Of a DNA stretch of 64,000 nt, positions 17,201 through 48,216 are shown piece after piece. Below the pieces are notes generated by a model. It was given only the letters and a program-made list of their open reading frames with translations, ran no database searches and was not told the origin of the DNA. Position 1 is the stretch's first letter, and every line of letters begins with the position of its first letter. The DNA is from Tubiluchus corallicola (lineage: Eukaryota > Priapulida > Priapulimorpha > Priapulimorphida > Tubiluchidae), in assembly GCA_030141605.1 (NCBI GenBank), contig JAQGDQ010000660.1:53053-117052 (forward strand). Direction: 5' to 3'. The position numbers and the translations under genes are program-made.

Positions 17201-20200
17201 AACTTTGAATGAAATTATTTTATTATTATGCTGTAAGTTTCGGAGATTTTACTTTGAATTTGTGACCAAAAGTTTTGTATTGCTAAAGATAGAGATGGGA
17301 GAAGTTGGACTAATTGGAAAGCAGACATTTTAATCATTTATAGCAGTAATATGCTGTACATTGATACTAAAATAGCTAAATTTTTGGCCTTATCTCTTCA
17401 AAAGTAAAAGTAAAGTAAAGTAAACGTCAACCCTGCAGTTTCTCTCAGTAACAAACCATGAACATTCACGACGTTAGTATTTTCTTTAGTTACTGGGTAA
17501 TTAAGACACAAACTTTTGCCTGTCTTCTCGATGTAACATTTTATTTAGGGCTGGATTGTTGTTGCAAGTTCCCCTGTAATAGCAGTCATTTATGGGGGCA
17601 CCCGAAGAGTTGTTTCATGGGAGGAAGAATTTACTTTGAATGCTTCTATGTCCTATGATCCAGATGTGAATCCTCTCAGTGACAAGAGATACCTGGGTTT
17701 TACGTAAGTACATTGTTAAGATGGGAATGTGAGTCAGTATCTGTTTATACATTTGGCCTTCATGAGCAGCCAGTCTTGTTTTTTTTATTAGTTTGCAACA
17801 TAAGCAAATCCTTATAATTGTTCTTGTTGCTATTGGAGGAAAAAATCAGCTTTTTCGTACTAAGACATAAGTCATTCTAAATGAGTCAAAGACCGTAGAC
17901 ACACATTTTTGAGTCTCTCTTTTGGTCTTAGCAAAGTGAATGACATTTGTCACAAAGATTTGCGGGGCCATTCTATTGTATAATTCAATGAAATTGTATA
18001 TTTGCAATATCCATAGACGTATAATCAACAGAGATTAACCAAGAATACAAGCTATATCAATTTTCAACTTGCATGTTTCAGTTGTATAGTAATATTTTTA
18101 TATTGTATTAGCTCAGAATGTGAAAGAGAATTTTTTATCATTGATGCTGTCTTGGAATTACAGATTTAAATGGTACTGTTACATTGGCATTGGTGAGATG
18201 CCTAGTGATGATGCTCCAGGATGCCCAGGTCAGCAGCAAGTGTTTATGAACAATTTACAGCAAAATGATTCCGGTAAGTAAAGCGAGTTATTTTGCTGCC
18301 GTTGAACAAGATTAGGTATAATAATCAACTTAGAGTTAATGTGTCGATGTACAGCAATGACTGTAATTTGTGCTGCAATATCATATTGGTGACCATCATG
18401 AAAAGTCTTTTCACTTTTCATTAGGCCTGTAACGATACGATTCATTGATCTATCGAGATACCTTTTGTGACAATACATGTATTGTCAAAGTGCGCTAGTT
18501 ACGCGATTATCTGAATTGTTCTGTTTAGCACATGTTTGTCAGTCCGCTAACAAAAACAATGTGAAATAATTCAAGCTACAGTTATAGAATGTACTATGTA
18601 TACTTAACAGTCAGTGCAGTAAGCACAGCTTTAGCAGACTAGGCACAGGTAGACCTGCTGCTAACAACCAGCGCGAAGCAGTTGAAAGCACATGTATTTA
18701 TAATAATCTATAGTAGTCTAATTAAATATTTGTTTATAACTTTCTGAAGCAGCTTACAATAAATGTAGACAGGAAAATGCAAGTGCTTATTTTAAATCAA
18801 AAGTGCTGAAACGTTTTTCATTTCTACTGGCTTACAATGTAAACAGTACAAGAGTATAAGCAAAAATCTAACAGTTTGCTGAATCATTGTAGCACTCACT
18901 TGGCAATTTTAAAATTGTTGATAAATCTAATATATATATTGAAATTTTAATATATCAGTATATCATATTATAGCATATTAACAGCTGAAGCTAGTTTTTA
19001 TTAAAGCCTGCAAACGTTAACTCAATGTGTATTATTATTATGTTGGTATCGTGATATGTATTGTATCGTGACTTAGATGTACCATTACAGCACTACTTTT
19101 TATTGTAAGAAATCAAAAATGATCAAAGTTTTTGAATAGCTAACGTCACCAATAATTGTTATTATATAGCATATATTTTAAACGATTAAAGGACAAGGAA
19201 GAATTTTGGTATCATTGCTGTTGCTATCCTGATTATTGCTTTTGCAGTTGTTGCACTGTTGTTGTTACTGTGCTGTGGTACTTAAGCTTTACTATTGTTC
19301 TTGAACCTATTTATGTTCTTACAGATTGTGTGACTATTGATTTCAAATTTTTATTGTTCAGTGTTTGTGCTTGCTAATGTGACTTTGAAATTTTCACTTC
19401 TTTTATCATTTGTGTTTTTAACTGATGGTCTTTCTTTTCTATAGTTATTTATATGTCTGGAAATAATTTCACTGCCCTTGAGAGATATACATTTGTTGTT
19501 GAAGTTAAAAAGGGTGTGAGAGCAAAAAGATACACACAGGTTATTGAAGTTCTAGCAGGACAACGTCCAACTTTAGATATCAAGTAAGCAAGATTTGGAA
19601 CTAATCTTATTGTTTATTGTTCTTTATTCTTTACAGTTCACCTACTTTTGACACAAGCTACAAAAGAGTTGTTTAAGATGAATGAACTTTTAGGTTTCTT
19701 TTGCATGTTTCCTGTTATAATACATTCGAAATCTATTCAATGCAATTTTCAGTACTAAACTTTCAGCTGTTCAAAGCATTTAGCTTCTTAAGCAACTGGT
19801 AAGGTGCAAGCTGTACATAAATAAATTGGACTGTTGAAAATTAGAACATTTTCCTGATAGATTTAAAAGCTTTTCTTTTGACAAGATCAGAAGGCAGTCT
19901 AGGTTAAATGTTATTAGTTTTTAGTTTTACCCCCCCCCCCCCTATTTAAATTATGACTTTGAATTCCAAAAACGAACATACTATAGCATTGTGTATCTCA
20001 TCAACTATTAAGCAACCCGGTAATAGTTGGAAAAAAGATGCTGAAAAATTGTGAACCAGTCAAGTTTTGAACCCGAGGTCTTAGGATTAAAAAGTTCCTG
20101 TATCTAACAGCGCTGATTACTCATGTTGCAAGCTGAGCTACTTCACAATTTATAGCCTTTAAAATTCAACTAGCCGTATTAAAACATAAAGTTTGTATTA

Positions 20201-30100: not shown

Positions 30101-33100
30101 TTTAATAAGTAATGCCACTTTAACACAAAGTAGTTTCTTGTATTTTATGTGTTACCACTTATTGAATTGGCAATTGTTGAGTTCTATTTGGGTTTATTAC
30201 TACAACTAACATTTCTGTAAACATACTCATTGCGCATTCTCATTAATACAGGTTCAAATGTGTCTCAGGTTGATTCATATTTTCTTATAAGTCCATTTAA
30301 GCCCAGTGACAGAGACATTACTGTGCACAAATTTACTATGGATGCAGAAAGGAACACTAGTTTAACGTTTGACAATTTACCTCCTGATGTCACATTGAAG
30401 GTAAAGATCATTGTGTACATATGTTTTTCAAAACTGTGTTTTTTAGGTTCGCTTTAAAATTTCACCCACTAAAAGTAAATTCATATCAATTATTGTAGTT
30501 TAACAATATTACCAAAGTTGCACTATGAGACGCCAAATAATAAGCAGTTTTTATTGTAGGTTATATTTAAATGGAAAGATAGACCGGTACTTGAAGATTT
30601 TGCAGAAAAAATAAATTTATTTCGTATTCCTGTGTCTCGAAGTGAAGGTGTGACTAGTGATATTCCTTTGCATAGTATAAATCTCTACAATGATAGAACG
30701 ACAACATCTGATTTGTACATTGGAATAATGTTTGAATCCTACGGTGATGAGTTATGTGGCAAACCGACTAAACGTTGCAGGGAAAAAACAGAAACGTGCC
30801 AACTTAGTGGGAATAATAATACGTGCCAGACTATGGATCAGTGTATGTCCGGTCAACAGTGCTATGATGGTTGGGTAGAACACTGTGTTCAAATTTCTAC
30901 AAAGTGTGAGAAAGCCATGACTAAATGTAGTAAAGCAGCTGTACTTAAGTGTGGCACTTTTGATGATTGTTGCAGAAGCAGTTGCAATGCTACTGCAAAT
31001 CCACCAGAATGCGAGTCTCATTGTGACGAAATGCAAAAAAATTGTACAATGGCTGCCAATGGCACGTGTGTTAGTGTAGAAACTTGTATACAAAACTCTG
31101 ATGGTGCTTGTGTAGAGACAGTGAAGAATTATCGTTTAAATGAATACTGTTTAAGCTTTTACTACAATTGTTCACAGCAACTTGAAACCGCCTGCAAGAG
31201 CACACTTAGGAATTGCAAGAAATCATGTTCAAATAATTTATGCAAACCTGTTTGTGACACCGCGTTACTGGACGAGTGTTTGCAAATGTGTCAAAGCGAT
31301 GCATCTAAATGCAAATCGCCAGTTGTAAAACGTTGCAGAGAAGAAGCTGTGGAAGCTGACAGCATATGTAAAGAGGTGCTTGAAACCAAAACTCCTGAAA
31401 TTGCAACAAATGAGCAGAAAAAACCTTCTGATTTGGGTATGTTATATAATAAATAAAAGCACAACCTATTCATTAAAACAAGCTGTAGTGTCTTCATGCA
31501 AAATTTGTGCAGCAGCACAAAAAACTGGACATGTTAATTTTCCAATTTTATTTTTTTAATTCTATGGTTACTAAAATAAACATCTACAGAGTTCTTTGGA
31601 AACATTCCTCTGTCAGATTAGCTATTCAGAATATAAACTTGCAACAAACATCAAATGAAGACATTTTAAAAATTTTTAGTTGCACTTGTCAGTGTTAATG
31701 AAAAGCCAAGCTTCCTTATGAACAAATTTAGATTACAAAGTTCTTGATGAATTTTTGGTGGACATGAGATATGAAAATATTAGAAAATGCAAATATTACT
31801 AATTAGACGTCCAGCTTGCTTGTTTTACAATTGTGGAAATAATTTGAATAAATATGAATATACATAAGAAAATAACTTGAAGATCAGGAAAAGATTGCAT
31901 TAATTATCAAAACGAGTATATAAGAGATCTTCTAATACAATTAAACTGTGTTGACAGGCGAGATTGTTGATTACCACGTTGCCACCTATACTGCAAATCA
32001 ACCAGATAGTGAGACTTCGGCTAAGGTGTCTGTCATCCTTCATGGCTACCAAGACTCTGGAGAACTGAATCTCGACATCTCTAAGTTTGCCCGTGGATCG
32101 TAAGACATAATATTGTCTGCAAGAAGCTTCAATTACTTATCAGAAACTGTGCAGAAAACAACTATTTACTTTAAAATTCTTGCAGATAGTTTATCGGCTC
32201 TATCGTCTCCTACCATGAGCTCTCATGTCTTGTTTGAGAAAAACTCGTTGTTATTGTTGTTTGTTTACAAAAAAGGCTTGTCTTGTTCAATCAACTAGTC
32301 TCTGCTACATATTATATATCTTTAATTGCTTACATAGTGGGCTAGTTTCATGCATAGGTACAAGGTTTGCTTATAATATTTGCATCTGCTTTTAATACTT
32401 AGCTCTTCTGATGAAATTTTAATACTTATAATGGAATTTTTTGTAATTTAAGTAAATGATTATATTGCAGAACTGACACATTTGAATTTAAAATAGCATC
32501 AATAGGAATGGTATCGGCTGTTAGTATCTGGCATGACAATTCAGGTGGAGGAGCTGATTGGTTGCTGGATAAAGTACGTAATTTATGATTTCAATGCCTA
32601 ATAGTGTTTAGCATCAAATACCTATATTCGAACAAATATTGTGATTCAAAATTCAGTTTGAACTTAGAAAATGTCTGACCAAACAAATTTGAATTATTTG
32701 ATAAAAAATAAAAAGTAATAGTTCAGTTTGTAATGCTACTTTCTGTAATAATAGCTTGTTACCAGTCTAAACAGTTTACGTTTTCTGCCCTCTTGTGTGA
32801 CTTCCATTTTTAAACTTCTTTTTGCAGTAGTTTACATTCATCTAAAACTATTGCATGGGAAATGCAGCATTACTTTCAAACTTGAAGGTGGGACAGTGGC
32901 TTGTTGATATTGCAACTGTAAATGTTAAAGCAAAATGTAAAATAAAAGTTCATTTGAAATTAATGAGAAATAACAAGACAATATTTATATATATAGTAGT
33001 GCAGCTGATGAAATTACAGTATGATGACTGACAATAATTTACAGTATCTTAAGCACCTTTTTTTGCTTTTTACGTAAAATTTCCAAAAATTATCTTTCTG

Positions 33101-36100
33101 TAGACTTAATTCAGGTATGGGTAGGACAAACATTCATACCTCTCATTTTACAAGTTCCTGGTTTTGGCAAATATTGTAGAATGTATGTGTATAGAATATT
33201 GTGTAATATTTTACAAAGGAAAACAGCATAATTTTTCATACCTTACCCCATTTTAAAGTATAGTAAAAGTATACAGTAAAATTCAACACCTATAATATTA
33301 CCAAAGTACTTCTATTAAATAAATAATAGTAACAACATCACGACAGAACATAACTTTCAGCAGAACAATCATTCCATGAGCACATTGCATGTGTTTTGTC
33401 GGAAGCAAAAATTGAAGCACAGTTATATCTATAAATATTCAGGGTTGTTTGCAAAACCTCGCAAATTGTACGCTTAAAATTCAAATTTAAAGTTTACCAC
33501 TGTGCTCATGCATGGGCTCTCAAACATGTGTACTGAACTCCTCTGAACTGAGAGGTACAGCATCTGTTGTTTGCATCGCATTTCCCAGTTGCAGGCATTA
33601 GTGATTATCTAACTAGCAAATGACGAAATGCATGTAACAGCAAAGTACTAACTGCATGAACATGAAATTATAGTTTTGTGGTAATAAAATATTCTCGTAA
33701 GTCATTTTTGGAAAAATAGTGTTCTCTTTCAATATTTTGTAAGATAGATTGTTTTAAGCTATAATTTAAAATGTGATTTTTGAATAGCAATAGATGGATA
33801 TACAATGTATTTGCATTAATAAAAAAAGTTTCGCTAGTTAGTATGGTTTATGTCTTTTCTTGTTGTTTTTTTAATCTTTATATTCAGGTGGCAGTATATA
33901 AAGGTTACCTGCAGTTCACCTGTCCTTGCAGGACATGGCTACGGGGCAGTGTCAATGAGAATCTACAGAAAATTCCTTGCTTCCTTAGTGCTAATACCAC
34001 ACCTACAGGTAATATAGAAATGTGGTTAAGTAGTTCTCATTAGATGCTTTTGAAAATGCTGAAATTCCTGTGATAAGTTTATGTGGACATTTATAGTGAA
34101 GTGCTAGACTGATGCAAATCTAGATGTTTTTTTTGCGTTAGAGCTAAGACTTGTTAGTTTTTGTCTTATGATTTTTTTGAGAGTGTAGTGCTGCCTTTAA
34201 GTTCTTATTGACTTCATAATTTTTCTAATGATCAGTCTAGATATAGTTCCATCATCAGGTACATGATTTGTACATGTTTGTGTTTATACATTTATGCGTT
34301 TTATGATTTGTGCTTCATCATTTGAGACCACTAATTATATTGCTAATTAAATACTGATGGCAATAATAAAAATTGGGTTGGTGATGCTGCTGCTGCTGAT
34401 GATGATGATGGTGATGGCGATGACGTCCACGACAATGATTGACAGTGATGATAATGAAGAGGAGGAAGAGAGGGAGGATGAATCATTGGTCAAAGCATGA
34501 AACTGCATGATGATTGGACCTAGCATGGGTGGTCCTAAGTTTGCTATGATGTGCTCAATAAGGGTGACAATACATGACACCAACGAATTCCATTGGTTGC
34601 ACTGCTCAGTAAATTTTTGTAATTTGGTTTCCAAGAAAAACAGTTCGAAGTTTGCAGGAAAGTACTGGTTTAACAGCAATTTTATTAGCTATAAAGAGAG
34701 CTCAAGCTTGAAAGGACAGGGACTTATATGGAGATAAGGCTTTGATTTTATGATTTCTACCTACCAAGAATAATGAACAACACAGTTGTGTGCCCATTGG
34801 GGTAGTGTGGCATCTTTGAGGTACTTGCTACAGTGACATCTTTGAACTATTGTAATGAGTAGAATGCAAAACTAAAGGCATGATTGTGTCAATATGAGAT
34901 TGATTTTTATCCTAATAGCTCGAACAAATTGCTGATTAAATATACGAAAGAGCTAGGCTCTAGAAATTAAAGTTGTTTATTAGATGTAGACGATCGTTTC
35001 AACAGCAACTGTCATTTTCAATGCTATAAATCAAACCACATCAATTAATAACCAACCTAACCAAGAGATACAATAAATTGCATCATTACACAATGACAAG
35101 AGTGAAATTCAAATTGGCAGGATACGATTAGAAATAAGTTAGAAACAGGTTCTCGTGTAAAGAAAACTGTATCAAATCCAAAAGAAGTACTTTATATATC
35201 AGATTCAGGCAAAGAGATGTTCTTAATTATTTGGTGTTATCTTTGCCAAAATCTGATATACAAGGTACTATTTTTATGCTTTCTTTACAGTTTCCTTTAC
35301 ACGAGAACCTCTTTCCAACTTATTTCTCGTTGTATTCTGTCAATTTGAATTCCATTCTTGTGATTGTATAATGATACAGTTTATTGTGTGCATTGGTTAG
35401 TAGTGTCATAACTGAACTGATTTATATTTTCCTTGATTTATTACTTTGAAAATGACAGTTGCTGTCCATCTGTGTTGATAAACAATATGCTGAATTGCTG
35501 ATTTTTTTCTTTTCAGTGATATGTACTTGGTGCGTATTTAGACAGATTTGTTATAACACACATAATAGCAGATTGTGCAATTACATACATGCAATACTTT
35601 TTTTACTTGCCTTTAGTTTTTAGATGGCAGACAAAAAAAATCACAGTGGTCACCATAGCAATGCCACTTACCAATGCCCAGTCTGATGTGCTTTTAGAAC
35701 CTACGACAGGACAATGTACATAACAGGCTGTGTGTTACACACACTACAGCAACCTATTGTTCAAGCTAAGCTGCAGCTTGGTGGTGCATGAAATAATACA
35801 CATTTTTTACAAATTTTATTAGCGCACAATAATTTCATGTTCAAAATTTGCACAAGTATCATATTCCAGTTGGATATTTCATTGGCCTTTTAAAGATGTT
35901 GTCTGTTATTGTTTAAGTATTCAGATAATTTACTACTTGAGAAAAATGCTGACCCACAGTGGAAACTGTTTCTTTTATAATATAAACACCGTAAAACACT
36001 CAATTACTTTGCTCATAACACACAAAGCCTAAAAAGAGCTTGACATTAAATGTGATAATTACAAAATTTAAGACCCACACTCACTAAATCCATTGGCTGC

Positions 36101-39100
36101 TTTTATGAGGAAATACTCTTTAATAGGATTAACGAATATTGTGTATAAAGTGAAATTTCTCAACGGCCAACAAGTAATCCGGCACTATAATGAAACTTGT
36201 AATTGCACTCTTTGCAGTCTCATGATTAGTAAGAATAATGAATATTAGAAATTAAATAATACTACTGATGAATTATATGAGGTGACCATATTGTCTACTG
36301 CTAGATGGTTTTTCTTCTTAGGAAAAAAGAAAATGTTTGTAAATAGGTATTAGCGAATAGCTAAAATACAATTTTTTTGCAGAGCCACCACAAATTAAGC
36401 GTGTAAATTTTACCCTGTATTTTACTCAATTCCAATGTATCTACTGGAATGAATCCGGTGCATGGTCAGACAAAGGATGCTTGGTAATGACATTCGTTAC
36501 AAAAATTTTACATTTAGTGAGCATTTATTTTCTTTTCCAAAATAACTAGGATGGTTCATAAAAATGTAATTTGATTTCAAGATCCATGGTAACTTCAAAA
36601 CTTTGAAAAAATCCTTTGTAAAGAAAATGACTGTTTACAACTGATGGAAAATGTAGCTACTTTTCCTGCTATTTTATGAAAAATACAAAAATGAAATTAC
36701 AGATCATGAAATGACATAACATGCCAAGAAATCTGAAGTTATTTTTATAGTAAACTTTACGTCAAAGATTGCTAGTATTAATAACTTCCTGTAGGCAAAC
36801 TGTCATTGTTGGCTTCTTCCAAGATTAAACAAATGTTATCTGAGATGATTGTCGAGTAGTATGTTGTACAGCTTTCCCTGTAAGTTAGTTTTCAGTCATT
36901 TATGAGATAAAAGGTTAATTAAAGTAGAGTTACTGTTGGCTTATATGTCATGTCTTGACCATGTTCATACGTTACATCTTTTGATGGATTTTGCTGTTTT
37001 TAATTTATTTAAGATGTAAGTTAAAAAATAATATAATAATATAACAATCTTTACACATTTCTCACCAATAAAATACTATTTCATAACAACTATGATTTAT
37101 AAAAAATAATCCATTGTAATAAGTATGTTTAGTTGTATAAATGCTTAATACAATTCAATTTTTCTTTATTTCTCCAAAAGAGATAACTTGAAAAATAAAA
37201 AAACTAATAACCTACCGTGTGTTACTTAGGTTGGACCTTACAGATCTGCCCATCAGCTTCACTGTCAATGCTCTCACATGACATTATTTGGCGGTTTTGT
37301 GTATGACATGCCAAATCAGCTTCTTCCTCCATTGGCAAAACTTGTTCGAGGGTTTTTTGCTAATGGTCTTGTGCTTCTAGTGGTACTGGTAACCTGGATG
37401 ATTTTTTTCGTTCTTACACCTTATCTAAGCAGAATGGACGAAGAAGATGTTTTGCAGGTACATCATCACGATGCAATTAAGTGAAGTACTTGCTTGTCAC
37501 ATGTTTGTAAAATTTCTTCATTTCATTTTCTCAGCAATTTATTATTATACTAATTTTTATATATAAACCTATGATTAACGTTTCCGATCGATGATATTTT
37601 TTAACAGTAGGTAATGTCTTTTTTTCAAATATCATTCATTTTCACATGCCATGGATAATTGTTACAGATATTATTACAACACGCAGTTTTAGTTTACATT
37701 TCATCTGACATAGGTGGAGCTGTCATGTAAGTGAGCCTATCTTGTAATTTTAAAACACGTAACACTTTTGTAAAAAATGAAACGATTGTTTTTGTTAGTA
37801 TGTTTGTTTAATTAAAACTTTAATAAATCCTTACTCCCTAATTCACAAAAACATGGTCGGCTAAATGCGTCATTATTATCACGGATTTCTGAAGAGATAC
37901 AGGAAAAACAGCTTGCATTTATTACTCATCACATGATCTGTTTAATTTAATTGGTGAAGTGACATTTATTAAAAGAAATATTGTGAGAGTTTGAAAAATA
38001 TGGTAAATGATTGAAAATTTAATAAGCAAAAATGAAAAAAATAGGTACAACATTAAATTTTATTGGTGCTCAAATGTCTCGTACCAGAGTGTCCCATGCC
38101 CAAATGTTCTGTGACCAAGTGTCTCGTGTTCAAGTGTGCCCATGCCCAAACGTCCTGTGCCCAACACACATGTCACATACTAAAAGAAATAATATACTTG
38201 CATTTTTCTTATTATAATTAATTTATAGATTGAATAAACTTACACTTCTATTAACAGAGTAGCATGGTCATACTGGGAGATAACAGTCCACTTGACACTG
38301 GTGCCTATGTAATCACAGCATACACTGGACAGAAAATTGGTTCTGGTACGACATCACGAGTTACTGTTATTCTGAAAGGTATTTCTCGTTTGAACTATTT
38401 AATGGCGATTAGTTTTGCACAAAATTTAAAAAGACCCATCATCATCAGATACAGCCTTCTTTCAATAAATACATACAACACTTTGACATTTTTATTGCTA
38501 TTCCTGAGAAAATTTATTTATTTACGAAAAATGTCATTTTCTCAATGACTACTGAATCATTTGTGACAAATCCACGTCAAACAAACCATCTCAGTGTGTG
38601 GCTTTCCATTGGGGCTTTGTTTCCGATTAGAGGCCACGTTTCTATCAAAATTTCAGGACAGCAATGATTAAGCTGAAATTATTACAATGGTACCCTTAGC
38701 TTATTATTGTACTACAAGAAAAAGAAACCCCAGTTTTGCCTGCGTAACATTTTGCAACAGATATAACAATATGGAACATATGTCTTTGTCTAAGTCTTTC
38801 ACTAAGTTTGGGTGAAAGAACTTCAGTCCTATCGATTGTTGATTCGGTTTGCGAAAATGGTCTGCAAAACTGGAAAATTCGGCAAAAAGTGCTGAACCAC
38901 CAAGGCAATGACAGTTTCATTCTTCATATTATTGAGTATGATCTGTATTTAGATGATAAGATCAATTCTTCCTGAACACACATCATGCATTCTGCTTTAT
39001 GTACCTATGGCAGTGTTTGATACACAATGCACGATACACGAATGACTGCTATTCAATACACGAATGTAATGAAAGAAAATTAAGACATTTCCTATAATAT

Positions 39101-42100
39101 AGGATTGAAACAAATGCAAATTTGGAAAAGAATATTTTCCTACCAACTCTCTAATCGCATTAGAAATGTGGCTGCACATTCTGAAACCAGACACATGTGC
39201 AGACTGTTATATAAATCTTTGCATATGCGACGGCATAATCAGCTGCAAATTTACAAAATTTTAGGATGTAAAATAAAGGAGCTAATTGGGTTTATTAATA
39301 ATTTAGTCGGTGGTTTGTTTTTATTTATTTAAGTAGTAGATACATGTAGAAGCTGAAGAAAGTAGACGATACATACGTGTAGGTGATGCAAAAGTAGATG
39401 TAGATTAGAAATAGATGCCCCAAAACTGACCCATGATGTTTGACTCACTTTAAGGCCTGCTACCAGAACAACAAAGTTGGTGTAATGCTTCATATTTGTA
39501 TTTACCATTCAATGCTATATCTGTATTTTTATAGGTAGCAAGGGAAGCAGTTTCCCAACTATTTTGTACAGCAAAGAAAGAATAACTATGCAGAGAGGAG
39601 GTAAGGATTTGTTTTTAATGACAACAGCTTATCCTCTTGGAGATCTGACGGCATGTGAGATATGGCATGATAATCGAGGAGAAAGTCCTTCATGGTAAGA
39701 GCTTATTATGTGTAAAATATGAAATCTTATGAATGTATAAGCAAGAATTTTTGTGTCTGAGAGGGTTTAACTTTTTCACAAGAAGGAACTCGAGAAAATT
39801 GTAAGAATTGCCAGCAAGCTGCATTGTCACTGATTAGTGTATGAGTGTATTATTTCCCGCATCTTTAATATAAATCGAAATATCGCAAATTTGGCAGTTA
39901 TTTTTACTGTGAAATATCTAATTTTTCTGGATAGGTTTATAAAATTATATTTTTTAATACTTCCATCTCTTACGTTATGATCATGCTTAACATTCAAGTG
40001 ATGACAAATGTCACAATGTTATGCATGTTGTGTGAGGTATTTTCTCTTTTAATAGTTCTGAATTCTTCAATCATTATAACTTTCAGGTTTCTGAGTGAGT
40101 TAATTGTAAGAGATATAGTTGCAAATGAAACCTGGTTTTTTGTGTATAACAACTGGTTAGGAGCTGACAAAGGTCCCAGGACATATTACTTTGAGCTAAC
40201 GCCAGTATCGGAAGAAGAACTTAGGGTGTGTAATGTTATCCTTTTTCATCATTGATTTGCTATTTTGGTGTTTACTGTGTTTAATTTAGAATATAATTTC
40301 CATGCCATTCAGTTAGCTCCGCTTTTGAAACAGTAATTTCTAAAACTAAATTTTTGCAGCAATTCCGGAATCTGTTTGTAAGTTACTTTCGGAAACATAT
40401 GAGTGACAGCAATTTGTGGACAGGTCTGCTTTGGAAGCCTCCTGAGAGTACTTTTACTCGTGTTGAGGTGGGCGGTTGTAAACTACATTATATTTGCTTG
40501 CATTACTTATTCCAATTTTGTACCAAGTGTTTATGCGAAGACAATAGTATATAAACACTTGTGCTGTTCAATTATGTATAATTCAAGGTTTGGTATGGTG
40601 CATGTTAAAAAGCTAGTTATTAATGCTTTTGTGTGTGTTTACAAGATTGTCTGTGAAGGATAAGTGAAAATTAACAATATTTTATGTGTGATTATGTACA
40701 ATAATTGTAATTGTTATATTCTGTGTTGTTTTATGCATACTAACTTTTTTCTTTTTTGAATGTTTACACTAACTATTCCTTGTTATATTTTGTGGCTGCA
40801 TTTTTTATCGTACAAAATAAAAGAAGAACGATAATAATGATTTGCCTCAGATAGTAATCACTGATTAGTACCACTTGTATGAAAATCAGCTGCCTTTTTT
40901 CTTTAGCTTTTCTTGTTAGTTATACCTGGTTTCTTACATCGATTTTTCTGGTTTTCGTTTGCAGAGATTAGCTTGTGCTGTGTGTCTCTTAACTCACGCA
41001 ATGTTCTTTAACATCTTCTTCCATGGCTGGCCTAGTACTGATCCGGCTGATCAGTTTAAAGTTGACAAAATACGACTTACGCCAACAACAGTTATAATAG
41101 GTAATGGTTTAGTACTCTGCCTACATCATTAAGATCTCAGACATAAACTCATTTGTTCATGTGCAGATGTTTTGCTTAAACTATCGAGCTGTTTTGCTTG
41201 AAAACCATTGCTTTGAAATATTTTAACAGACTGTTAGGTAGATAGATAAATAGACAGATAGATGTTGCTTTACTTTTCACTTAAACCTACATAAATACAC
41301 TTTATGAAACTGAAAAGGAAAAATTTGTTGACAATATTTGATTCAGACTGATTATCCTTTCTTTGCCGATCTCATGTTTTAACACACATTTAACAAAATT
41401 AAAATAAACTATGTCAACTGGTGGTATCTCAAATTTAAAACGTAAATTTCTTGTGCCTCTGACATTGCTATTAACTATGTTGGGAAATGGTGTTTTTTTT
41501 CAATACACAAACAGCATACAGTATAAAAATAAAGGTCTATAACATAATAATGATCTTTCAGGTAAAACTATAAATTATTTTCCTGGGCTCAGTCCCGGCT
41601 TTTTTGTGTTTCCTTTCTTTTCTGACAACTTGGTATTTGCTCTTTTGCTTCATATGCTTTTGTTATTGCTGTTACATATTTAAATGGTTTTTCTTTGTCT
41701 TTTCAGGTATTATTTCAGGTGCTATTTCAATTGTCACCAGCTTCATTATTGTACTGCTTTTCCGCTTATCAGAAAATCGACCCTTTTTTAGCACCTGGAA
41801 AATGAAAGGGTGAGATTGTGTAGTTACTGCATAGTTAAATCAAGAATGTACATATCTGAAAATTGTCTATCCACCTTGAATTTTGATGTCAATTCACTTC
41901 TGTCGCTCAACTATTATTATTCACTCTCATTTTATAGTGATGTTATATTATACAAGCAGATATAAGTCTCTATAACAAATAGAGACTATTTATTATGCAT
42001 TATGTGTAATATAAAAAATGGTTTGCAAAAAATCAATACAGTACGTGCATACTTGTCTATTTGGTGTAAAATATAATTTCTTCTACTTCTTACAGAATTG

Positions 42101-45100: not shown

Positions 45101-48100
45101 TTTTTTTTTAATATTGCTATCATTACCCTTGTAGATAGAGGATGTAAAGACCATGTGGCATTACATTGAATACACACTTGTGCCAAGCTTGTATCTGACC
45201 AACCTCTACAACGGAAAAGTGGCGCCACCTGGTTTTACTGATGACTTTGTAAGCAGACGTGTAGGTGTTGTGAGATTGCGCCAACTTCGAATGCAACCAG
45301 GTATAACTAAAATACATAAAGCAGTTCTGTTAAATGTGTATTTTTTTATTATAATAACAATGTTCTTAGGAATGTAGCTGTAGATGCTGTAACACTATTT
45401 GTGGCATTATAGCACCATATATAATTAGCATAGGTGCCATAAATGTTAAGACTAGAAAATTTTTAGATGTTTCATTTGATACATTTTTGTACAGCTCTGT
45501 GCTTATACCTAGAAACAAAAAATGGATTTTGTATTTTAAATTTGCTGACATTTTCTAGGAAAGTGTGAAGTTGTTGCTCAAACGAAAAACATTGATTCAT
45601 TCTGTGTTGGTGCGTATAGTTGGTTAGATGAAGAAACAAGATCCTATAAACCCGGGTGGCGACCTCGTAAATATCCTGCATTTCCTCCAGATGAGTGGAC
45701 ATATCAATCTACAACAGACCTTCTCACATTACCATATGTGGGTTAGTTACTTTCTACTTTTGTTATTTTTGTATATAATTATATATATACAACATAAGCG
45801 TAAGCAGTATGTTTAGAACCATGTCAAAACTATACCAGCATGTAGCAATGATTATTATAAGGCTGCTTTACAGTTTTATGATTCTGTAGTAAAACATTAT
45901 GTTTTATGCATTCAAATGCATGTTTAAATAAAGATTAGGGCAAACTCCTACTGCACATTAATTAATATAATTTTTTCAACCAACACATTCAAAAAGAATG
46001 AACCTATATGGAACTAGTTCCTGTAAATGTGTAAATGTTAGGATTTAGAATGTTGCTCTGAAAACAACCCTAGTTTCAAAAAAAGCTAGACAAACTTATC
46101 AAAAATGGTGAAGGTAATTTGAAGAACAAAATAAAATCAACAGAGAAAATTCCACTAGTTTTGAGCAACAGGTACACACAATCAAACCTCATTATGACGT
46201 ACCTCGTTATAATGCCTGCCTTTTGCCCTGTCCTGATTTCCATAATATATTAAGCATACGAAATACTGTCAAACTCGCCTTCTGCCAAAAGTTTATTGTA
46301 CACAATAAATCTACCTCGTTATAATGCCTGCCAAGATAAAGTACAATGAATTGCTGCTGAGAAACAGCCATTGTGTTGTAAAACCAATGACCTCTGAACA
46401 GAAAAAAACAGTTATCCCATTTAAATTAAGGTTTAGGTCTTGTTGCAGATGACTGTATGAAAGTGAATGTTGAGGTTTTGAACAAGGAAGTTGACGGAAC
46501 ATGCATTAGATAAAAATTCAGACCTAATTGGAAATAGAAAAGAAAACGATTTATAAGTGACGAACCCGTGTGCATGAGAAAAAATAGGTATAGGTTGTGC
46601 TGTCAATCTGAAAGTAATACACAAAGTTATCAATGATACTAATGACCAAGTTTAGCCTAACAGCAAGCCATGCATACTTCATTGTGCTGTGCTAAATGAT
46701 GTTGCATTTGAGGTGCCTAATAAAGGTATAAAGTTTGCTACTATGTCCCACACTTTGTAATGACAAAGTCAAGCTAAAGTTCAACATAAAAATATAAGTT
46801 CTATAAAAAGCTGTACTTTCTTTAGTCGAGGCGCTCCCACAAAATCCCGAAGAGGTAAACTCTCTTGTTAGAAATAAAAGCACTTTGATCCTTCAAGAGG
46901 TGAAAATGTAAGATTGGATGCATATACTAAGTACTAAATAGGTATATTGTGAAGCAGAATTCCAACAAAAATGTTGCTTTAGTTCCGTGGAATGCAGAGC
47001 TAAGAATCTTTTTGCCTCCTGTGCAATTAATGTGAAATGAACCAAGCGATGCTTTGATTTCATTAAAAAGTAAGTTAAGATTATGACTTACAACACTATA
47101 CGTATGTAGGTGAAATTTATTTTGACTGTTTTGCCTCATGATCATTAAACATTGAATTTGTTTGTTTTAGGTCAGTTTGCTGTATATAGTGGAGGAGGAT
47201 ATGTACAAGAACTGTCATCAAACCTTACTGGGAACTTTGCATTAATCGGCAAACTTATTAATTCAAGATGGATAGATGATCATACTAGTGCTATAATGGT
47301 TGAATTCACATTATTCAATTCGAACTCAAACTTGTTTACTATCGTATTCTTAGTTATAGAGTTTAGTGTAACGGGAGGTTTGTTTCCGTCGCACGATATC
47401 TTTACTGTTCACCTTGATCGCTACTCAGAAAGGATTGACTGGTTAGATATTATAAGCAAATGCATTTACTTTATTTTCATTGTGATTTTTACATATAGAG
47501 TATATGTCAACCTAAGTAAGAAGCGTGTGTCATATTTTGTACATTTTGTAGACTGGGTTGATTTGGTCATACTGACGTTGTCCCTAGCAGCAATATCAGT
47601 GATGGGCAGAAAAGCATTCATTGTCGGCACTTTGCTAGATAAATATGCTGAAAGTGGAGATTCGCAATTTGTAAACTTCTACGAAGCTGTTCTCTGGGAT
47701 TCAGCACTTAAATATATTTTAGCCATTCAGTTTTTCATTATAAATTTAGACCTTATTCAGAAACTATCTTGCCATAAGTATACGTCAAAGTATTTATTAG
47801 CATTTGCTATGTCCTTGATAGAATTGCTCAACTTCATTATATTGATGTCATTGGGTGTGTTTATATTTGCGATGCTAGGGCAACTTATGTTTGGCAATAT
47901 TTTGAGAGACTTCCATTATTTTGCGTTAGCTGTCGAGACAGTTTTAAATATGATCTTAAAAAATGCTCAGTTTGAAATATTCGAGGAGACCCGTCATGGG
48001 ACAGCATGGGATTCGATTGGATATGTCTTCTTTGGAGTGTTTATAGCGTGCTTTTTTCTTTTAACGCTTAACATGTTTCGTGCTATAATAATCACTACTT

Positions 48101-48216
48101 ATCATTCTGCAGTCAGAAGTGACAGCGACAAGTACGATGTGTTTACGAAAGCAAAATCTAAAGATCTTAGAAGATTAACAATAGCTGGTGATGAAGATGA
48201 GGCGGAAGATGAGTGA
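1846..48216 (+). CDS. PKD1-like: Polycystin-1-like receptor/channel protein, 5' incomplete
   Basis: Large multi-pass membrane protein of the polycystin-1 family. Relatives sense ligands or mechanical input through a giant ectodomain that is self-cleaved at the GPS, and pair with polycystin-2 channels. Exons: 1846-2025, 3204-3410, 5497-5811, 6729-7019, 11632-11982, 12862-12987, 13424-13606, 15929-16623, 17549-17703, 18164-18273, 19445-19583, 20250-20506, 21270-21365, 22918-23037, 23239-23387, 23602-23710, 24289-24401, 25065-25190, 26338-26429, 26839-26971, 28066-28216, 28582-28682, 29500-29656, 30252-30400, 30560-31436, 31958-32099, 32471-32573, 33888-34008, 36383-36483, 37230-37457, 38258-38378, 39535-39694, 40087-40225, 40360-40467, 40965-41100, 41707-41809, 42096-42150, 42642-43231, 43598-43759, 44333-44402, 45135-45300, 45559-45741, 47171-48216. 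All 43 have AG/GT borders and compatible phases; summed length gives 3,037 codons plus TGA at 48214. The start exon is missing. Splice sites were read by eye, so single exons could be off; the family call is firm. Confidence 0.9.
2026..3203 (+). other. Intron with piggyBac-like terminus
   Basis: Intron inside the C-type lectin domain. Near 2570 the sequence TTAACCCTTTCACTAC resembles a piggyBac-type end (TTAA target followed by CCC). I see no matching opposite end nearby, so at most it is a relic. Around 2985-3030 there is a GT/TG-rich patch. Otherwise I see nothing. Confidence 0.4.
3812..4092. repeat. CCACA/CATAC-rich and CAR simple repeats
   Basis: 3812 to about 3987 is a degenerate array of ACCACAC, CCATAC and CACAT pieces. 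It is followed from about 4018 to 4092 by CAG/CAA-type triplets (AGCAGCAGC, AACAACAAC). It opens reading frames rich in His/Thr/Pro or Asn/Ser, but these are composition artefacts: it lies in the intron between the lectin domain and WSC domain 1. Confidence 0.8.
4093..5496 (+). other. Rest of lectin-WSC1 intron, nothing recognised
   Basis: About 1.4 kb of AT-rich intron sequence with no open frame, repeat structure or RNA gene that I can support. It ends with the pyrimidine-rich acceptor before 5497. Confidence 0.5.
5497..5811 (+). CDS. Polycystin exon 3: WSC domain 1
   Basis: A single phase 1-1 exon holds one complete WSC domain, a cysteine-rich putative carbohydrate-binding module also found in fungal wall sensors and in vertebrate polycystin-1. 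The pattern is clear: YRGCWLF at the start, a CLAECR helix, the ICYCDLLG turn, then CPQC, GSYCG and the closing YAVYD strand. It lies outside the cell. Because the exon is symmetric, skipping it would leave the frame intact. Confidence 0.9.
6729..7019 (+). CDS. Polycystin exon 4: WSC domain 2
   Basis: Phase 1-1 exon encoding one WSC domain. It has YYQGCFSLF at the start, CEEVCLQKGYYF in the helix, YTCKCGNGF in the middle turn, then CIRC, TCPG and the closing AVVYV strand. Donor at AGAA/GTAAGT. It shares exon borders and phase with the other WSC exons but little identity beyond the cysteine frame, so the duplication is old. Confidence 0.88.
7729..8230. repeat. Alternating tandem repeat, four diverged units
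   Basis: Four related units start near 7732, 7841, 7990 and 8129, each opening with a variant of ATCTTTCATTTGATATGCTAC and ending in a block such as CCCCCTAGTGGGGTCA. Units 1 and 3 share ACTGGAAAGCATTTGTCTCC; units 2 and 4 share a TACTATT, ttGACACT and GTGCATTT block. The array therefore reads A-B-A-B with a higher-order step of about 255-290 bases. It is non-coding and intronic. Confidence 0.7.
8932..9022. repeat. Short imperfect palindrome, pogo-like ends
   Basis: The left end TACAGTAGGTGCCGCTTAAT followed by AGATTC is mirrored on the right by GAATCTATT and TACTGT. A small hairpin, CACTTT/AAAGTG, lies between them. The ends resemble Tc1/mariner-pogo termini beside a TA. At about 90 bases it could be a miniature element or a chance palindrome. 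Confidence 0.35.
9460..10015. mobile_element. Possible solo LTR or LTR fragment
   Basis: This stretch is GC-richer than its surroundings. It carries an AATAAA signal near 9931, and ends near ACATCACAACA followed directly by GTGACGATG, a layout seen just downstream of LTRs in Gypsy-type elements. The left border is unclear, and no second copy or internal coding region is present. This is weak evidence. Confidence 0.25.
10251..10487 (-). pseudogene. Unidentified reading frame inside intron, minus strand
   Basis: On the minus strand about 79 codons stay open from an acceptor-like CTAG near 10490 to a stop at 10251. The deduced protein looks like real coding sequence: an amphipathic segment with LPKNLWKQDIEALALRF followed by ASETVAVFHQLTND, then a polar tail. 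There is no methionine before the internal ones, no partner exon upstream and no clear poly(A) signal. It could be the last exon of a nested gene, a processed fragment, or chance. I do not recognise the family. Confidence 0.25.
10689..10707. repeat. (AT)n microsatellite
   Basis: About nine uninterrupted AT dinucleotides in the WSC2-WSC3 intron. Confidence 0.9.
11162..11214. repeat. (GA)n microsatellite
   Basis: About 26 GA dinucleotides with a single interruption (AAAGA). The antisense frame reads as Leu/Ser repeats and is not a gene. Confidence 0.95.
11632..11982 (+). CDS. Polycystin exon 5: WSC domain 3
   Basis: Phase 1-1 exon with the longest WSC copy, 116 complete codons. LLGCWKDK opens it; NCKKVCSEKNFGYIGLQ is the helix and strand; ECYCGNMYG is the signature turn; then CNFEC, RRCI and CMTCGG. 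The closing strand GSAALQVH is less typical than the YAVYD form of the other copies, and the loop after GCW is longer. Confidence 0.88.
12609..12641 (+). ncRNA. Hammerhead-like core motif, degenerate
   Basis: CTGATAA, a short self-pairing segment (GATAGC-AGCA-GCTAGTC with one bulge) and then GAAAC resemble the core of hammerhead ribozymes found in Penelope-like elements. The core has one deviation from CTGATGA, and I could not draw convincing stems I and III, so activity is unlikely. It may mark the end of an old Penelope-like insertion. Confidence 0.2.
12862..13606 (+). CDS. Polycystin exons 6-7: WSC domain 4, split by an intron
   Basis: Two phase 1-1 exons (12862-12987 and 13424-13606) together form one WSC domain. 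The first carries YGCHKL and RMCMYHCYEKG. The second carries KYAVIL, TCGCAVHE, LCDYLCGG, FCGG and the closing ASVYRLY strand. The internal intron falls after the helix cysteines, unlike the intronless copies before it, so this copy gained an intron or the others lost it. Confidence 0.87.
13820..15170. repeat. Inverted arrays of a 16-17 bp degenerate repeat
   Basis: The right array (about 14885-15165) repeats variants of TGTCCAAATNNCCTGTG at roughly 16-17 base steps, some 16 times. The left array (about 13830-13945) holds the reverse complement (GGACACAG, GGCACATAGGACATTT) in about 6 copies. The outer ends are similar (ATTTTGGACACAG and, inverted, ATGTTTGGACACAG). This gives a foldback-like structure of about 1.35 kb around a unique centre. 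It lies in the intron before the REJ region. Confidence 0.65.
15929..16623 (+). CDS. Polycystin exon 8: PKD-like fold and start of REJ
   Basis: A long exon, entered in phase 1 and left in phase 0, of 231 complete codons. The first ~125 residues look like an immunoglobulin-type PKD repeat: strands around VPLKFIMRAG, KIKWQM, then YTYFTPGLFEVIVDAKD and a closing LALDIL. The second half, with DYKWEVYSIS and YVLLPATYTVRLVATVT, is the opening of the REJ module. This is the only PKD-like unit visible; human polycystin-1 has many. Extracellular. Confidence 0.75.
17549..23710 (+). CDS. Polycystin exons 9-16: REJ module
   Basis: Eight exons (17549-17703, 18164-18273, 19445-19583, 20250-20506, 21270-21365, 22918-23037, 23239-23387, 23602-23710) encode the rest of the REJ (receptor for egg jelly) region. 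Hallmarks are SPVIAVIYGGTRRVVSW, LNASMSYDPD, then FKWYC, the CLLNCG and ECISCNY cysteines, YIWAIEPLDIE, and the repeat-like strands around GPGGDACGIAYFQFTVNEAP. REJ modules are fibronectin-like strands placed just before the GAIN/GPS in polycystin-1 and sperm REJ proteins. Many short exons with mixed phases contrast with the symmetric lectin/WSC exons. Confidence 0.88.
18422..19095. mobile_element. hAT-type non-autonomous transposon (MITE)
   Basis: The left end TAGGCCTGTAACGATAC and the inverted right end TAGTGCTGTAATGGTAC match at 13 of 17 positions. The flanks are CTTTTCAT at 18414-18421 and CTTTTTAT at 19096-19103, an 8-bp target duplication with one change, as expected for hAT elements. 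The 674-base interior has no transposase frame. It sits in the intron between the exons ending at 18273 and starting at 19445. Confidence 0.7.
19930..19942. repeat. Poly(C) tract
   Basis: Thirteen consecutive C on the plus strand in an intron. Confidence 0.9.
20046..20151 (-). repeat. tRNA-derived relic or SINE head
   Basis: Read on the minus strand the 106-base segment begins AAATTGTGAAG and ends TTCACAATTT, an outer 10-bp stem. GTAGCTCAGCTTGC matches a pol III A box with a D-arm-like stem (GCTC/GAGT). TCGGG-TTCAAAA-CTTGA forms a T-arm with a 7-base loop and B box. Spacing is about ten bases too long and no sound anticodon arm forms, so it is not a working tRNA. A tRNA-type SINE head or tRNA pseudogene fits best. 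Confidence 0.5.
21064..21110. repeat. (TTA)n/(TCA)n microsatellite
   Basis: A short ATT run passes into about twelve TCA triplets, all in an intron of the REJ region. Confidence 0.9.
24289..30400 (+). CDS. Polycystin exons 17-24: GAIN region, first part
   Basis: Eight exons (24289-24401, 25065-25190, 26338-26429, 26839-26971, 28066-28216, 28582-28682, 29500-29656, 30252-30400) encode about 340 residues. A helical first half (EEETKKQEEDKIRTEV, ALIKALEQLPVHG, then LLNQASLIFEELTYEAK) matches GAIN subdomain A. A strand-rich second half (DLKRIGYFIMPSLSSLL, ANPVVWGN, ANTRVAKVLFQDI) matches subdomain B, and continues into the next exon with TSDLYIGIMFES. The GAIN fold supports self-cleavage at the GPS. 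Here the last strands and GPS do not follow directly: a cysteine-rich block and a PLAT domain intervene. Confidence 0.78.
30560..31436 (+). CDS. Polycystin exon 25: cysteine-rich insert
   Basis: The largest internal exon (877 bases, phase 0 to 1). Its first ~60 residues finish a GAIN strand (DLYIGIMFES). From CGKPTKRC about 215 residues contain roughly 31 cysteines with recurring C-x6-C and C-x7-C spacings, many lysines and glutamates and several N-glycosylation sequons (for example NATAN, NGTC, NCSQ). There is no EGF, LDLa or TSP pattern. Alternating Cys and helix-forming residues suggest a disulfide-laced helical module. It ends in a polar linker (EQKKPSDLG). I do not recognise the fold. 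Confidence 0.85.
31958..34008 (+). CDS. Polycystin exons 26-28: extra extracellular PLAT domain
   Basis: Three exons (31958-32099, 32471-32573, 33888-34008) encode a PLAT (lipoxygenase-homology) sandwich: DYHVATYT, then SAKVSVILHG, FARGSTDTFEFKIASIG, VSAVSIWHDNSGGGADWLLD, and a closing strand ending FTCPCRTWL. The IWHDNSG motif is diagnostic. It precedes the GPS, so it should be outside the cell, whereas the known polycystin PLAT is cytoplasmic after TM1 (also present here, 38258-40225). CPCRTW and a later Cys could form a disulfide, fitting an extracellular site. Confidence 0.85.
34009..36382 (+). other. Intron before the GPS, with long inverted repeat
   Basis: A 2.4-kb intron. It has GATGATGATG-type simple repeats at about 34375-34475 and the 35002-35465 inverted repeat, listed separately. 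I see no coding sequence in the remainder. Confidence 0.6.
35002..35465. repeat. Long inverted repeat (foldback, arms about 215 bp)
   Basis: The left arm runs from ACAGCAACTGTCATTTT (35002) to CAGATTCAGGCAAAGAGA (about 35218). The right arm runs from TCTTTGCCAAAATCTG (about 35242) to AAAATGACAGTTGCTGT (35465). By eye the arms are about 80 percent identical when one is inverted, including AGAACCT with GTGTAAAG and GAAATAAGTT with GAAACAGG/GAAAGAGG. The loop is about 23 bases. In the polycystin pre-mRNA it would form a long hairpin. I found no clear target duplication. Confidence 0.8.
36383..37457 (+). CDS. Polycystin exons 29-30: GPS cleavage site and TM1
   Basis: Two exons (36383-36483 and 37230-37457). 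The GPS motif is complete: CIYWNESGAWSDKGC followed by LHCQCSHMTLF. Self-cleavage is expected between M and T of HMT (codons 37275-37283), a tolerated variant of the usual HLT. A short stalk follows, then a hydrophobic helix (GLVLLVVLVTWMIFFVL), which is TM1, and an acidic cytoplasmic end MDEEDVLQ. Four conserved cysteines and both tryptophans of the motif are present, so autoproteolysis is plausible. Confidence 0.92.
38065..38190. repeat. Second copy of the 16-17 bp degenerate repeat
   Basis: About seven units of the form CCCAAATGTCCTGTG, related to the arrays at 13820-15170 and in the same orientation as its right arm. It lies in the intron just before the cytoplasmic PLAT exon, so the repeat is dispersed rather than unique. 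Confidence 0.6.
38258..40225 (+). CDS. Polycystin exons 31-33: cytoplasmic PLAT domain
   Basis: Three exons (38258-38378, 39535-39694, 40087-40225). The typical PLAT order is clear: LGDNSPLDTGAYVITAYTGQ, SGTTSRVTVILKG, then DLFLMTTAYPLGDLTACEIW, HDNRGESPSWFLSELIVRDI, TWFFVYNNWLG and YFELTPVSEEEL. It is the orthologue of the intracellular PLAT after TM1 of all polycystin-1 proteins, which in vertebrates binds acidic lipids. Splicing 37457 to 38258 in phase 0 gives EEDVLQ-SSMVILGDN, as expected for the family. Confidence 0.92.
40360..43231 (+). CDS. Polycystin exons 34-38: TM2 to TM5 region
   Basis: Five exons (40360-40467, 40965-41100, 41707-41809, 42096-42150, 42642-43231). After FTRVE the helix RLACAVCLLTHAMFFNIFF is TM2, and GIISGAISIVTSFIIVLLF is TM3. 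A long cytoplasmic loop follows, with a basic/amphipathic part (LKQMTKQMKEVQAAVRKLT) and a charged segment rich in K, then E. LPWWCTNIAWTLMI opens TM4, and FIWLFSLVASFLLSFLVFEP with LKVLILTIIASAYI forms TM5. PWWC and EPLKVL are polycystin-1 signatures. Confidence 0.9.
43598..43759 (+). CDS. Polycystin exon 39: TM6
   Basis: An exon entered and left in phase 2. CRHKPTQEEIDKAREIA is an amphipathic cytoplasmic helix leading into LLTSYTLALVFLLFVVFDP, the first helix of the channel unit. The sequence R-x-x-KPT..E at this place is typical of polycystin-1 proteins. Confidence 0.88.
44270..44302. repeat. (GT)n-rich microsatellite
   Basis: GT dinucleotides interrupted by a G run in the short intron before the exon at 44333, close to its acceptor. 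Confidence 0.8.
44333..48216 (+). CDS. Polycystin exons 40-43: TOP domain and channel helices
   Basis: Four exons (44333-44402, 45135-45300, 45559-45741, 47171-48216). The extracellular TOP/polycystin domain includes FIEIEDVKTMWHYIEYTLVP, LRQLRMQPG, the FCVGAYSWLDEETRSYKPGW motif, GGGYVQEL and SRWIDDHTSAIMVEFTLFN. Five more helices follow: IISKCIYFIFIVIFTY, WVDLVILTLSLAAISV, LAIQFFIINLDL, LIELLNFIILMSLGVFIFA and FFGVFIACFFLLTLNMF. The pore segment (codons near 47929-47979) reads ETVLNMILKNAQFEIFE and lacks the GD filter of polycystin-2. The tail is only about 35 residues, acidic at the end, with no coiled coil; the stop is TGA at 48214. Confidence 0.93.
44972..45085. repeat. 29-bp minisatellite, four copies
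   Basis: Copies start at 44972, 45001, 45030 and 45058, each opening AATTGGTGCAGTGAAG or a close variant and ending TGGTCAG. The last copy is cut short. Lengths are 29, 29, 28 and about 28 bases. It ends about 50 bases before the exon at 45135. Confidence 0.9.
45742..47170 (+). other. Last intron of polycystin gene, pogo-like repeat
   Basis: A 1.4-kb intron. ACCTCGTTATAATGCCTGCC occurs twice as a direct 20-base repeat (46201-46220 and 46313-46332), each preceded by a similar ACACAAT segment. The phrase resembles ends of pogo/Tigger elements. Nothing else is recognised. Confidence 0.5.

Follow-up and report, generated by a model that had tools for sequence, protein, structure and literature searches.

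A cysteine-rich module and an additional PLAT domain before the GPS in a polycystin-1-like gene family of Tubiluchus corallicola

A polycystin-1-like gene on the forward strand of a 64,000-nucleotide stretch of Tubiluchus corallicola DNA (contig JAQGDQ010000660.1; this whole stretch is termed the window) was predicted to carry a Cys-rich module and a PLAT domain between the strands of its GAIN domain and the GPS. According to a passage of PMC4810088, the GPS makes up five strands of the GAIN domain, of approximately 320 residues, and is cleaved at HL*T; the PLAT domain of polycystin-1-type proteins is stated in part of PMC1934368 to be always intracellular.

Exon chain and domain order of the window gene

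Canonical splice sites were tried near the expected exon boundaries, leaving only two chains, each with three frames, of which one was open. The spliced product displays, in this order, a GAIN-like strand (DLYIGIMFE), a Cys-rich stretch, a PLAT domain, the GPS and TM1. The open chain includes an exon at 30252..30400 (SNVSQVDS...DVTLK), aligned to an intronless paralog described below and presumed to encode GAIN strands, and an 877-base exon (30560-31436), which reads through from the GAIN-like strand into the Cys-rich stretch in one open frame. The 5' part of the latter (30560..30736), with DLYIGIMFE at its end, presumably encodes the last GAIN strands, a label given by position and motif. The Cys-rich module itself lies at 30755..31369; its presence agrees with the original prediction, while its length was set at ca. 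205 residues rather than ca. 215. The PLAT domain that follows (PLAT1) is encoded by three exons, 31958..32099, 32471..32573 (IWHDNSG, with a counterpart exon in the paralogs) and 33888..34008 (FTCPC...PC), and phase-1 introns are found on both its sides. The strand preceding the GPS and the first half of the GPS (RVNFTLYFTQFQCIYWNES...GCL) lie at 36383..36483, and the second half (HQLHCQCSHMT), the stalk and TM1 at 37230..37457. In the 524-residue product Pfam placed PLAT at residues 298-396 (42.5 bits, cut-off 23; E 1.3e-10) and GPS at residues 432-468 (33.3 bits, cut-off 22.5; E 7.1e-8). The whole insert, Cys-rich module and PLAT1 together, comprises approximately 360 residues (361 as cut). 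Cleavage is predicted between Met and Thr of H-M-T; the Thr codon occupies 37281-37283, its last base being the end of the feature as originally delimited.

The other parts of the gene were located by alignment to the intronless paralog and by Pfam. A second PLAT domain, the ordinary one claimed to follow TM1, was recovered by tblastn of the paralog at 38264..40250 (exons near 38264-38380, 39534-39695 and 40088-40250; E 1.5e-5 to 2.1e-12). Further downstream are part of the polycystin domain (PF20519 match at 47065..47415, or G000:C862:100117-100467; E 1.4e-20), where the match crosses three stops and so includes an intron, and a channel exon (47170-48150, its end approximate; tblastn E 3.5e-43). 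Upstream, one exon of the REJ region was matched by PF02010 at 17555..17680 (G000:C862:70607-70732; E 3.4e-9). By paralog alignment the gene probably extends from 16.2 kb (E 7.5e-6), or from ca. 13.4 kb by a weak match (E 0.005), to 48.2 kb. REJ, a GPS before TM1, a PLAT after TM1 and a polycystin domain with channel are all features of the polycystin-1 (PKD1/REJ) family. A set of 11 transmembrane segments also characterises that family; hydropathy of the intronless paralog, described below, places TM1.

A family with the same arrangement

The intronless paralog encodes the whole order, along with another PLAT that follows TM1 and with the channel, in a single frame of 2,739 codons, in which Pfam detected REJ (E 9.3e-45), two PLAT stretches, PF20519 and PF08016. 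The claimed succession of strand, Cys-rich module, PLAT and GPS is therefore borne out by the open splice chain, by Pfam and by this paralog. The hydropathy of the latter reveals one signal-like segment near Met28, the next TM-like segment being TM1 at 1621; this predicted topology supports the proposed location of the module outside the membrane, on the GPS side of TM1.

The exon encoding the strand and the Cys-rich part matches 36 places in the genome, the window included, some of them near-identical. At all 27 intron-bearing loci fetched, an AG acceptor precedes the matching codon of this exon, and the strand and Cys-rich part share one open frame. The three PLAT1 exons and the two GPS exons were complete and in order at five of the seven loci fetched in long stretches, and partial at the other two. 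That the arrangement is more than a chance succession is confirmed by its recurrence across the genome and by the intronless paralog, where a single frame holds the whole order. Judged by sequence, a large family of polycystins bearing the Cys-rich module and the extra PLAT before the GPS is present in this one genome. Among marker genes of the same genome, COX1 was not found and innexin gave no match, a result that does not amount to absence, while a partial 18S piece bore a tentative resemblance to lophotrochozoan sequences.

Within the Cys-rich module, 29 Cys columns are kept in at least 80% of the rows, 27 of them being present in all 29 aligned rows; its length varies, with ca. 60 extra residues at four loci (L018-L021). 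The window copy had no Pfam match at E up to 1, and at the same threshold one of 20 family members was matched (E 0.3). Similarly, no PDB chain scored below E 2 (best E 2.1). At the sensitivity used, the module therefore appears to be new, with no clear counterpart in Pfam or PDB. An AlphaFold2 prediction for the exon alone (30560-31435) gave a poor, mostly helical model (mean pLDDT 46).

H-[LM]-[ST] was kept in 25/25 GPS matches, with HMT in the window and a strict H-L in some rows; as the search for them relied on resemblance to the window exon, exons devoid of the site could be missed. CPC and a later C are present in all eight PLAT1 rows of the PLAT tree alignment. In this tree, which is short, gappy and unrooted (left out were L041, which is close to L036, and L069, in which no PLAT frame was apparent), the PLAT1 rows separate from all other PLATs, including the cytoplasmic PLAT2, at 99% ultrafast bootstrap, and the insert-bearing genes have a PLAT2 that clusters at 90% with a short stretch of PLAT2 from L056, an ordinary polycystin. 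Among the paralogs, the intron before the first PLAT1 exon is in phase 1 in 5/5 and that after the third in 4/5, the fifth being ambiguous.

The part before the insert and the rival explanations

In L056 and L057, a pair of ordinary polycystins encoded by this genome, a Y-Y-x-G-V motif is followed by a short loop that leads to the GPS. In L056, 17 residues separate YYLGVV from QYTLQLWF; in L057 the best-looking junction within the loop is a phase-1 intron. A short loop at this point in both fits an insertion at that place. A motif resembling Y-Y-x-G-[IV] is common to the window family and both of these, and the part carrying it occupies the interval from REJ to GPS, the usual site of GAIN. Pfam did not list GAIN among the matches before the insert in the 524-residue product. 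Taken alone, the pre-insert part scored 7.5 bits on L057, where the highest of 200 shuffles reached 5.7, L056 being absent from the matches listed; a six-row profile of this part reached 6.5 bits on L057, the same as the best shuffle. A longer part, from REJ to the insert, scored 3.5 bits on L056, under five shuffles (best 5.9), with an hhalign P of 0.11. Scores obtained with the GPS included (55.9 and 39.6) came almost wholly from the GPS, which alone gave 51.4 and 39.5. These scores consequently do not establish sequence continuity with the ordinary GAIN across the insert site, and our confidence in the preferred reading given below is lower for that reason. Against the PDB, L056 matched ADGRG6 within the GPS (E 0.35 and 0.63) and, at E 1, a P-granule scaffold protein, matches so weak that the strands cannot be numbered from a solved structure. 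The two-part module thus stands directly before the strand leading into the GPS, as claimed, while its looping out of GAIN itself is weakly supported: as the pre-insert part has no significant similarity to the GAIN of ordinary polycystins, the grounds for placing it there are its position and a short motif, which weakly suggest that these strands belong to GAIN.

The same data bear on an improbable explanation, namely that what precedes the Cys-rich module is something other than GAIN, the module being simply one more domain of an ordinary kind ahead of a GPS whose sandwich is otherwise built differently, perhaps with that of the PLAT. The missing similarity and the Pfam result would agree with this; the position between REJ and GPS and the motif common to L056 and L057 argue against it, and fast divergence would mask homology. 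An error in the gene model, either by joining in exons of another gene or because the main transcript skips the insert, is very improbable. The exons were predicted from genomic DNA, weak phase-1 donors (30744, 30756) could be joined in frame to 36383, and the PLAT1 exons form a phase 1-1 cassette that can be skipped in frame; but the intronless paralog has the same order in one open frame, and both the exon series and the frame shared by strand and Cys-rich part recur at the loci described above. A direct join of 30400 to 36383, named in the original prediction as evidence against the insert, would break the reading frame, as phase 0 would meet phase 1. Least credible is an origin of PLAT1 within the gene, by duplication of its cytoplasmic PLAT; one protein does carry both domains, but the tree disfavours this origin by the split of PLAT1 from PLAT2 and all other rows, and by the grouping of PLAT2 with the L056 piece.

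Two further explanations concern what the module does. It may have a structural part, as a spacer or in dimerisation: a rod rich in disulfides would, together with the PLAT, determine the spacing of the ectodomain or its choice of partners, with no sensing involved. We regard this as unlikely, though worth weight: the regular cysteine spacing, the mostly helical assignment (in a poor model) and the variable length of the Cys-rich part speak for it, and the direct adjacency of the module to the GPS and the common binding of PLAT domains to membranes or lipids (stated in part of PMC6299612) speak against it. Alternatively, the module could block or regulate GPS cleavage, GAIN being held uncleaved until the insert is removed or bound. 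The insert immediately precedes the GPS-forming strands and the window has HMT in place of HLT, but retention of the site in every GPS match would be unexpected were cleavage unimportant, and we consider this distinctly unlikely.

Proposed role and comparison with known systems

Our preferred reading, to which we assign a probability of roughly 0.5, is a polycystin-1-type receptor-channel with a Cys-rich module and a PLAT inserted before the GPS strands and serving in extracellular sensing. Exon shuffling is the most likely route of insertion, with a phase-1 intron of the loop before those strands as the point of entry. The pre-insert strands would be GAIN subdomain B, closing around the insert; the GPS, to judge by its conserved motif, would still be cleaved, and the module would remain on the N-terminal fragment, close to the membrane. 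Recognition of membranes or lipids, with calcium, is common among PLAT domains (in a passage of PMC6299612), and stalk peptides of polycystin-1 work as a tethered agonist (in part of PMC11458180). The module may accordingly act as an extracellular recognition or membrane-contact element, on which binding or force would alter the grip of GAIN on the tethered agonist and, through it, the activity of the channel part. A more far-reaching version, which we offer tentatively and hold to be doubtful, is that of lineage-expanded receptor-channels whose GAIN has its own outward sensor, a new disulfide-rich fold with a membrane-binding PLAT; ligand or membrane contact at the insert would directly set the release of the tethered agonist, and the many divergent copies would differ in the cues they recognise.

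Should the module indeed be looped out of GAIN, the fold would tolerate ca. 360 extra residues just before the GPS strands, and one genome has retained and multiplied this layout. The disease missense changes studied in GAIN impaired or disrupted polycystin-1 cleavage (in part of PMC4810088). The predicted extracellular position of PLAT1 departs from the statement in PMC1934368, in the part cited above, that this domain is always intracellular. If true, the proposed arrangement would provide a natural system in which to study the relay of extracellular events to GAIN in polycystins and adhesion GPCRs. The latter have, in the portion of PMC13197933 covered, a GAIN with GPS and tethered agonist, as predicted here, but are seven-TM receptors, unlike the window polycystin; 'plat domain' has 0 mentions in the first 300,000 characters of that source. 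A layout with a Cys-rich module and a PLAT before the GPS was not found among the matches listed from the open-licence PubMed Central literature, as far as their text was covered, nor in the portion of PMC12716839 covered.

In a REJ-domain skeletal protein of Acropora digitifera, as partly described, one PLAT is listed, after the GPS, and no comparable insert was found. Pancreatic lipase and lipoprotein lipase are secreted, and their extracellular PLAT contacts lipid or membrane; they are enzymes, not GAIN receptors. Human polycystin-1, the PKD1-like proteins and sea urchin SpREJ likewise have REJ, GPS, TM1, a post-TM1 PLAT and a channel, and in the window family this common plan is extended, ahead of the GPS and apparently outside the cell, by a Cys-rich module and a second PLAT.

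Order of parts in the window gene and its intronless paralogs

The exon chain of the window gene (G000:C862:53053-117052, in an assembly totalling 343,548,820 bases) was derived from translation, splice-site inspection and a small enumeration of two chains in three frames each, of which one was open. This open chain comprises, on the + strand, exons 30252-30400, 30560-31436, 31958-32099, 32471-32573, 33888-34008, 36383-36483 and 37230-37457, separated by introns of phase 0, 1, 2, 0, 1 and 0. As indicated by the spliced translation and Pfam, the product runs from the strand DLYIGIMFE through approximately 205 Cys-rich residues, a linker, a PLAT domain (E 1.3e-10), RVNFTLYFTQFQCIYW and the GPS (E 7.1e-8) to TM1, with strand and Cys-rich part encoded by a single exon. 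REJ and the polycystin domain were also matched by Pfam on the window contig, the latter match crossing stops and hence including intron; judged by its sequence, the gene is polycystin-1-like. A WSC assignment was rejected as resemblance only, being unlisted by Pfam in the intronless paralog (E up to 1).

A genome search with the window product, in which 82 of the 154 candidates from the first look were scored, gave 88 matches. Five places, on contigs C1882, C1923, C2172, C198 and C1930 (L002-L005, L034 and L035), carry the whole order in one frame of 2,437-2,748 codons, with 32-33% identity over query residues 2-522. For the C1882 copy (L005; 2,739 codons), Pfam listed REJ, two PLAT stretches, the polycystin domain and the channel; its GPS was unlisted in the full scan, yet scored 26 bits in a separate GPS search (cut-off 22.5). 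In tblastn, the parts of the intronless paralog map in order onto the window; they begin at 13.4 kb if a match of E 0.005 is counted, otherwise at 16.2 kb (E 7.5e-6), and end at 48.2 kb. Since these paralogs encode the same order in one frame, the order is independently proven, and the predicted succession of Cys-rich module, PLAT, GPS and TM1 is confirmed by the open chain, Pfam and the one-frame copies alike. Such copies might have arisen from spliced transcripts. The flanks of C1882, C1923 and C2172 (both sides) and of C198 (upstream) are similar in blocks only, which suggests that these are not plain haplotype duplicates.

A genome-wide family with the same insert

The arrangement, originally noted in the window, extends to a genome-wide family: as counted from the genome search, the strand-Cys exon occurs in at least 36 places, comprising the window, 30 other intron-bearing places and the five intronless frames; C1882 holds one more, partial copy. 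An AG directly precedes the matching codon, placed using the family's own first residues, in all 27 strand-Cys exons retrieved from the 30 intron-bearing places. Identity to the window exon is 26-37%, and some copies differ little from one another, with 12 of the 406 row pairs lying above 85%. The 29-row alignment (27 loci, the window and the C1882 copy; some rows extend past the exon end into intron) contains 29 Cys columns at 80% of rows or more, 27 of them in every row. In a 20-sequence Cys-rich alignment the window member had no Pfam match and one member had a weak one (E 0.3), while nothing below E 2 was found against the PDB. In four loci (L018-L021) this module is longer by about 60 residues, which include more cysteines at regular intervals; in L015 and L016 it contains an insertion of about 8 to 10 consecutive acidic residues.

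Seven loci (L036-L042) were studied in longer stretches. The three PLAT exons (PLATa, b and c) and two GPS half-exons (GPSa and GPSb) were found in order in five of these (L036, L037, L039, L040 and L041); L038 yielded PLATb and PLATc, and L042 all three PLAT exons, its GPS half-exon matches falling just outside the stretch examined. Junction enumeration in those five placed phase 1 before PLATa in 5/5 loci and after PLATc in the four of five (all but L037) that gave a clear phase there; the best-scoring phase was not that of the window for PLATb to PLATc in L036, nor for GPSa to GPSb in L041.

GPS-first-half matches also occur in tandem, with a period of about 87 bases, at G000:C1210:13779-15750, adjoining an insert-bearing polycystin, and at G000:C2040:276-2101. 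An 18S probe had only two matches, L072 (G000:C555 near 66895) and G000:C555:42775, in opposite orientation and about 24 kb apart. The piece read is partial and may resemble lophotrochozoan 18S.

Insertion site, topology and possible alternative transcripts

The insertion site was compared with two ordinary polycystins of the same genome, L056 (C1787) and L057 (C1831 near 0.92 Mb), both with REJ, GPS and polycystin matches nearby; L058 (C2047) was left out. Between YYLGVV and QYTLQLWF, L056 has 17 residues; in L057 the best-looking junction places a phase-1 intron after NGTYYIGVMQN and ahead of the strand preceding CRYW. The insert-bearing rows have a similar motif, with conserved Gly and Phe columns (each 27/29). 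A profile of six insert-bearing sequences, with the insert omitted, reached 55.9 bits for L057 and 39.6 for L056 (best of 200 shuffles, 10.1), a test weaker than it appears because the GPS part alone gives 51.4 and 39.5. On L057 the pre-insert part alone scored 7.5 (best of 200 shuffles, 5.7), or 6.5 when the six-row profile was used (best shuffle, 6.5); on L056 the longer REJ-to-insert part scored 3.5, beaten by five of 300 shuffles (hhalign P 0.11). Given these weak scores, what marks the pre-insert part as putative GAIN is its position, with REJ on one side and the GPS on the other, together with the short motif. The strands noted before the insert are present, in the same exon as the Cys-rich part, and the original observation stands apart from their GAIN label. 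Looping of the insert out of GAIN is likely. The same ordinary-polycystin matches occur on C1787, C2138 and C2264, which suggests uncollapsed assembly duplicates.

In a hydropathy scan the C1882 copy has one signal-like segment around Met28, and the next above threshold is TM1 at 1621; the Cys-rich part (residues 1178-1395) and the extra PLAT (PLAT1; residues 1418-1538) therefore lie on the GPS side of TM1 in this copy, as was predicted. The window insert has six N-glycosylation sequons. In a PLAT tree (21 sequences or pieces from this genome; short, gappy and unrooted), the eight PLAT1 rows split from the other 13 with 99% ultrafast bootstrap, and the post-TM1 PLAT (PLAT2) of insert-bearing genes grouped with a 33-residue L056 piece at 90%. 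CPC and a later Cys are present in all eight PLAT1 rows, and CPC is absent from the three PLAT2 rows covering the same place; this pattern fits disulfides outside the cell.

In the window, PLAT1 has a phase-1 intron on either side. Together with the phase-1 intron in the L057 loop, this suggests exon shuffling into such a loop intron, with later loss of the strand/Cys-rich intron, as the simplest history.

Transcripts joining 30400 to 36383, named as contrary to the insert's retention, would break the frame. Isoforms without the module are possible, since the exon phases in the window would let a transcript leave out the PLAT exons without a frameshift, and since weak phase-1 GT donors lie at 30744 and 30756, just past the strand before the insert; joining 30743 to 36383 would keep the frame and remove the entire insert.

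A putative sensing lobe

In polycystin-1, five GAIN strands are formed by the GPS and the cleaved fragments can remain together (PMC4810088); stalk peptides act like a tethered agonist (PMC11458180). The cleavage tripeptide H-[LM]-[ST] is kept in 25 of 25 GPS second-half matches (among them L004 and L005, which represent a single place). The best-supported reading from these sequences is a GAIN that would still cleave, with an outward sensing lobe near the membrane. GAIN is predicted to self-cleave at the kept tripeptide; the insert, as a lobe close to the membrane, would engage either a ligand or the membrane's outer leaflet, and binding there might alter GAIN's hold on the tethered agonist. 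We infer folding, cleavage, binding and coupling alike, and propose the sensor role as a hypothesis. Among the literature matches listed, the parts available describe no layout with a Cys-rich module and a PLAT before the GPS. Against that literature, the layout is a new form within the polycystin-1 kind.
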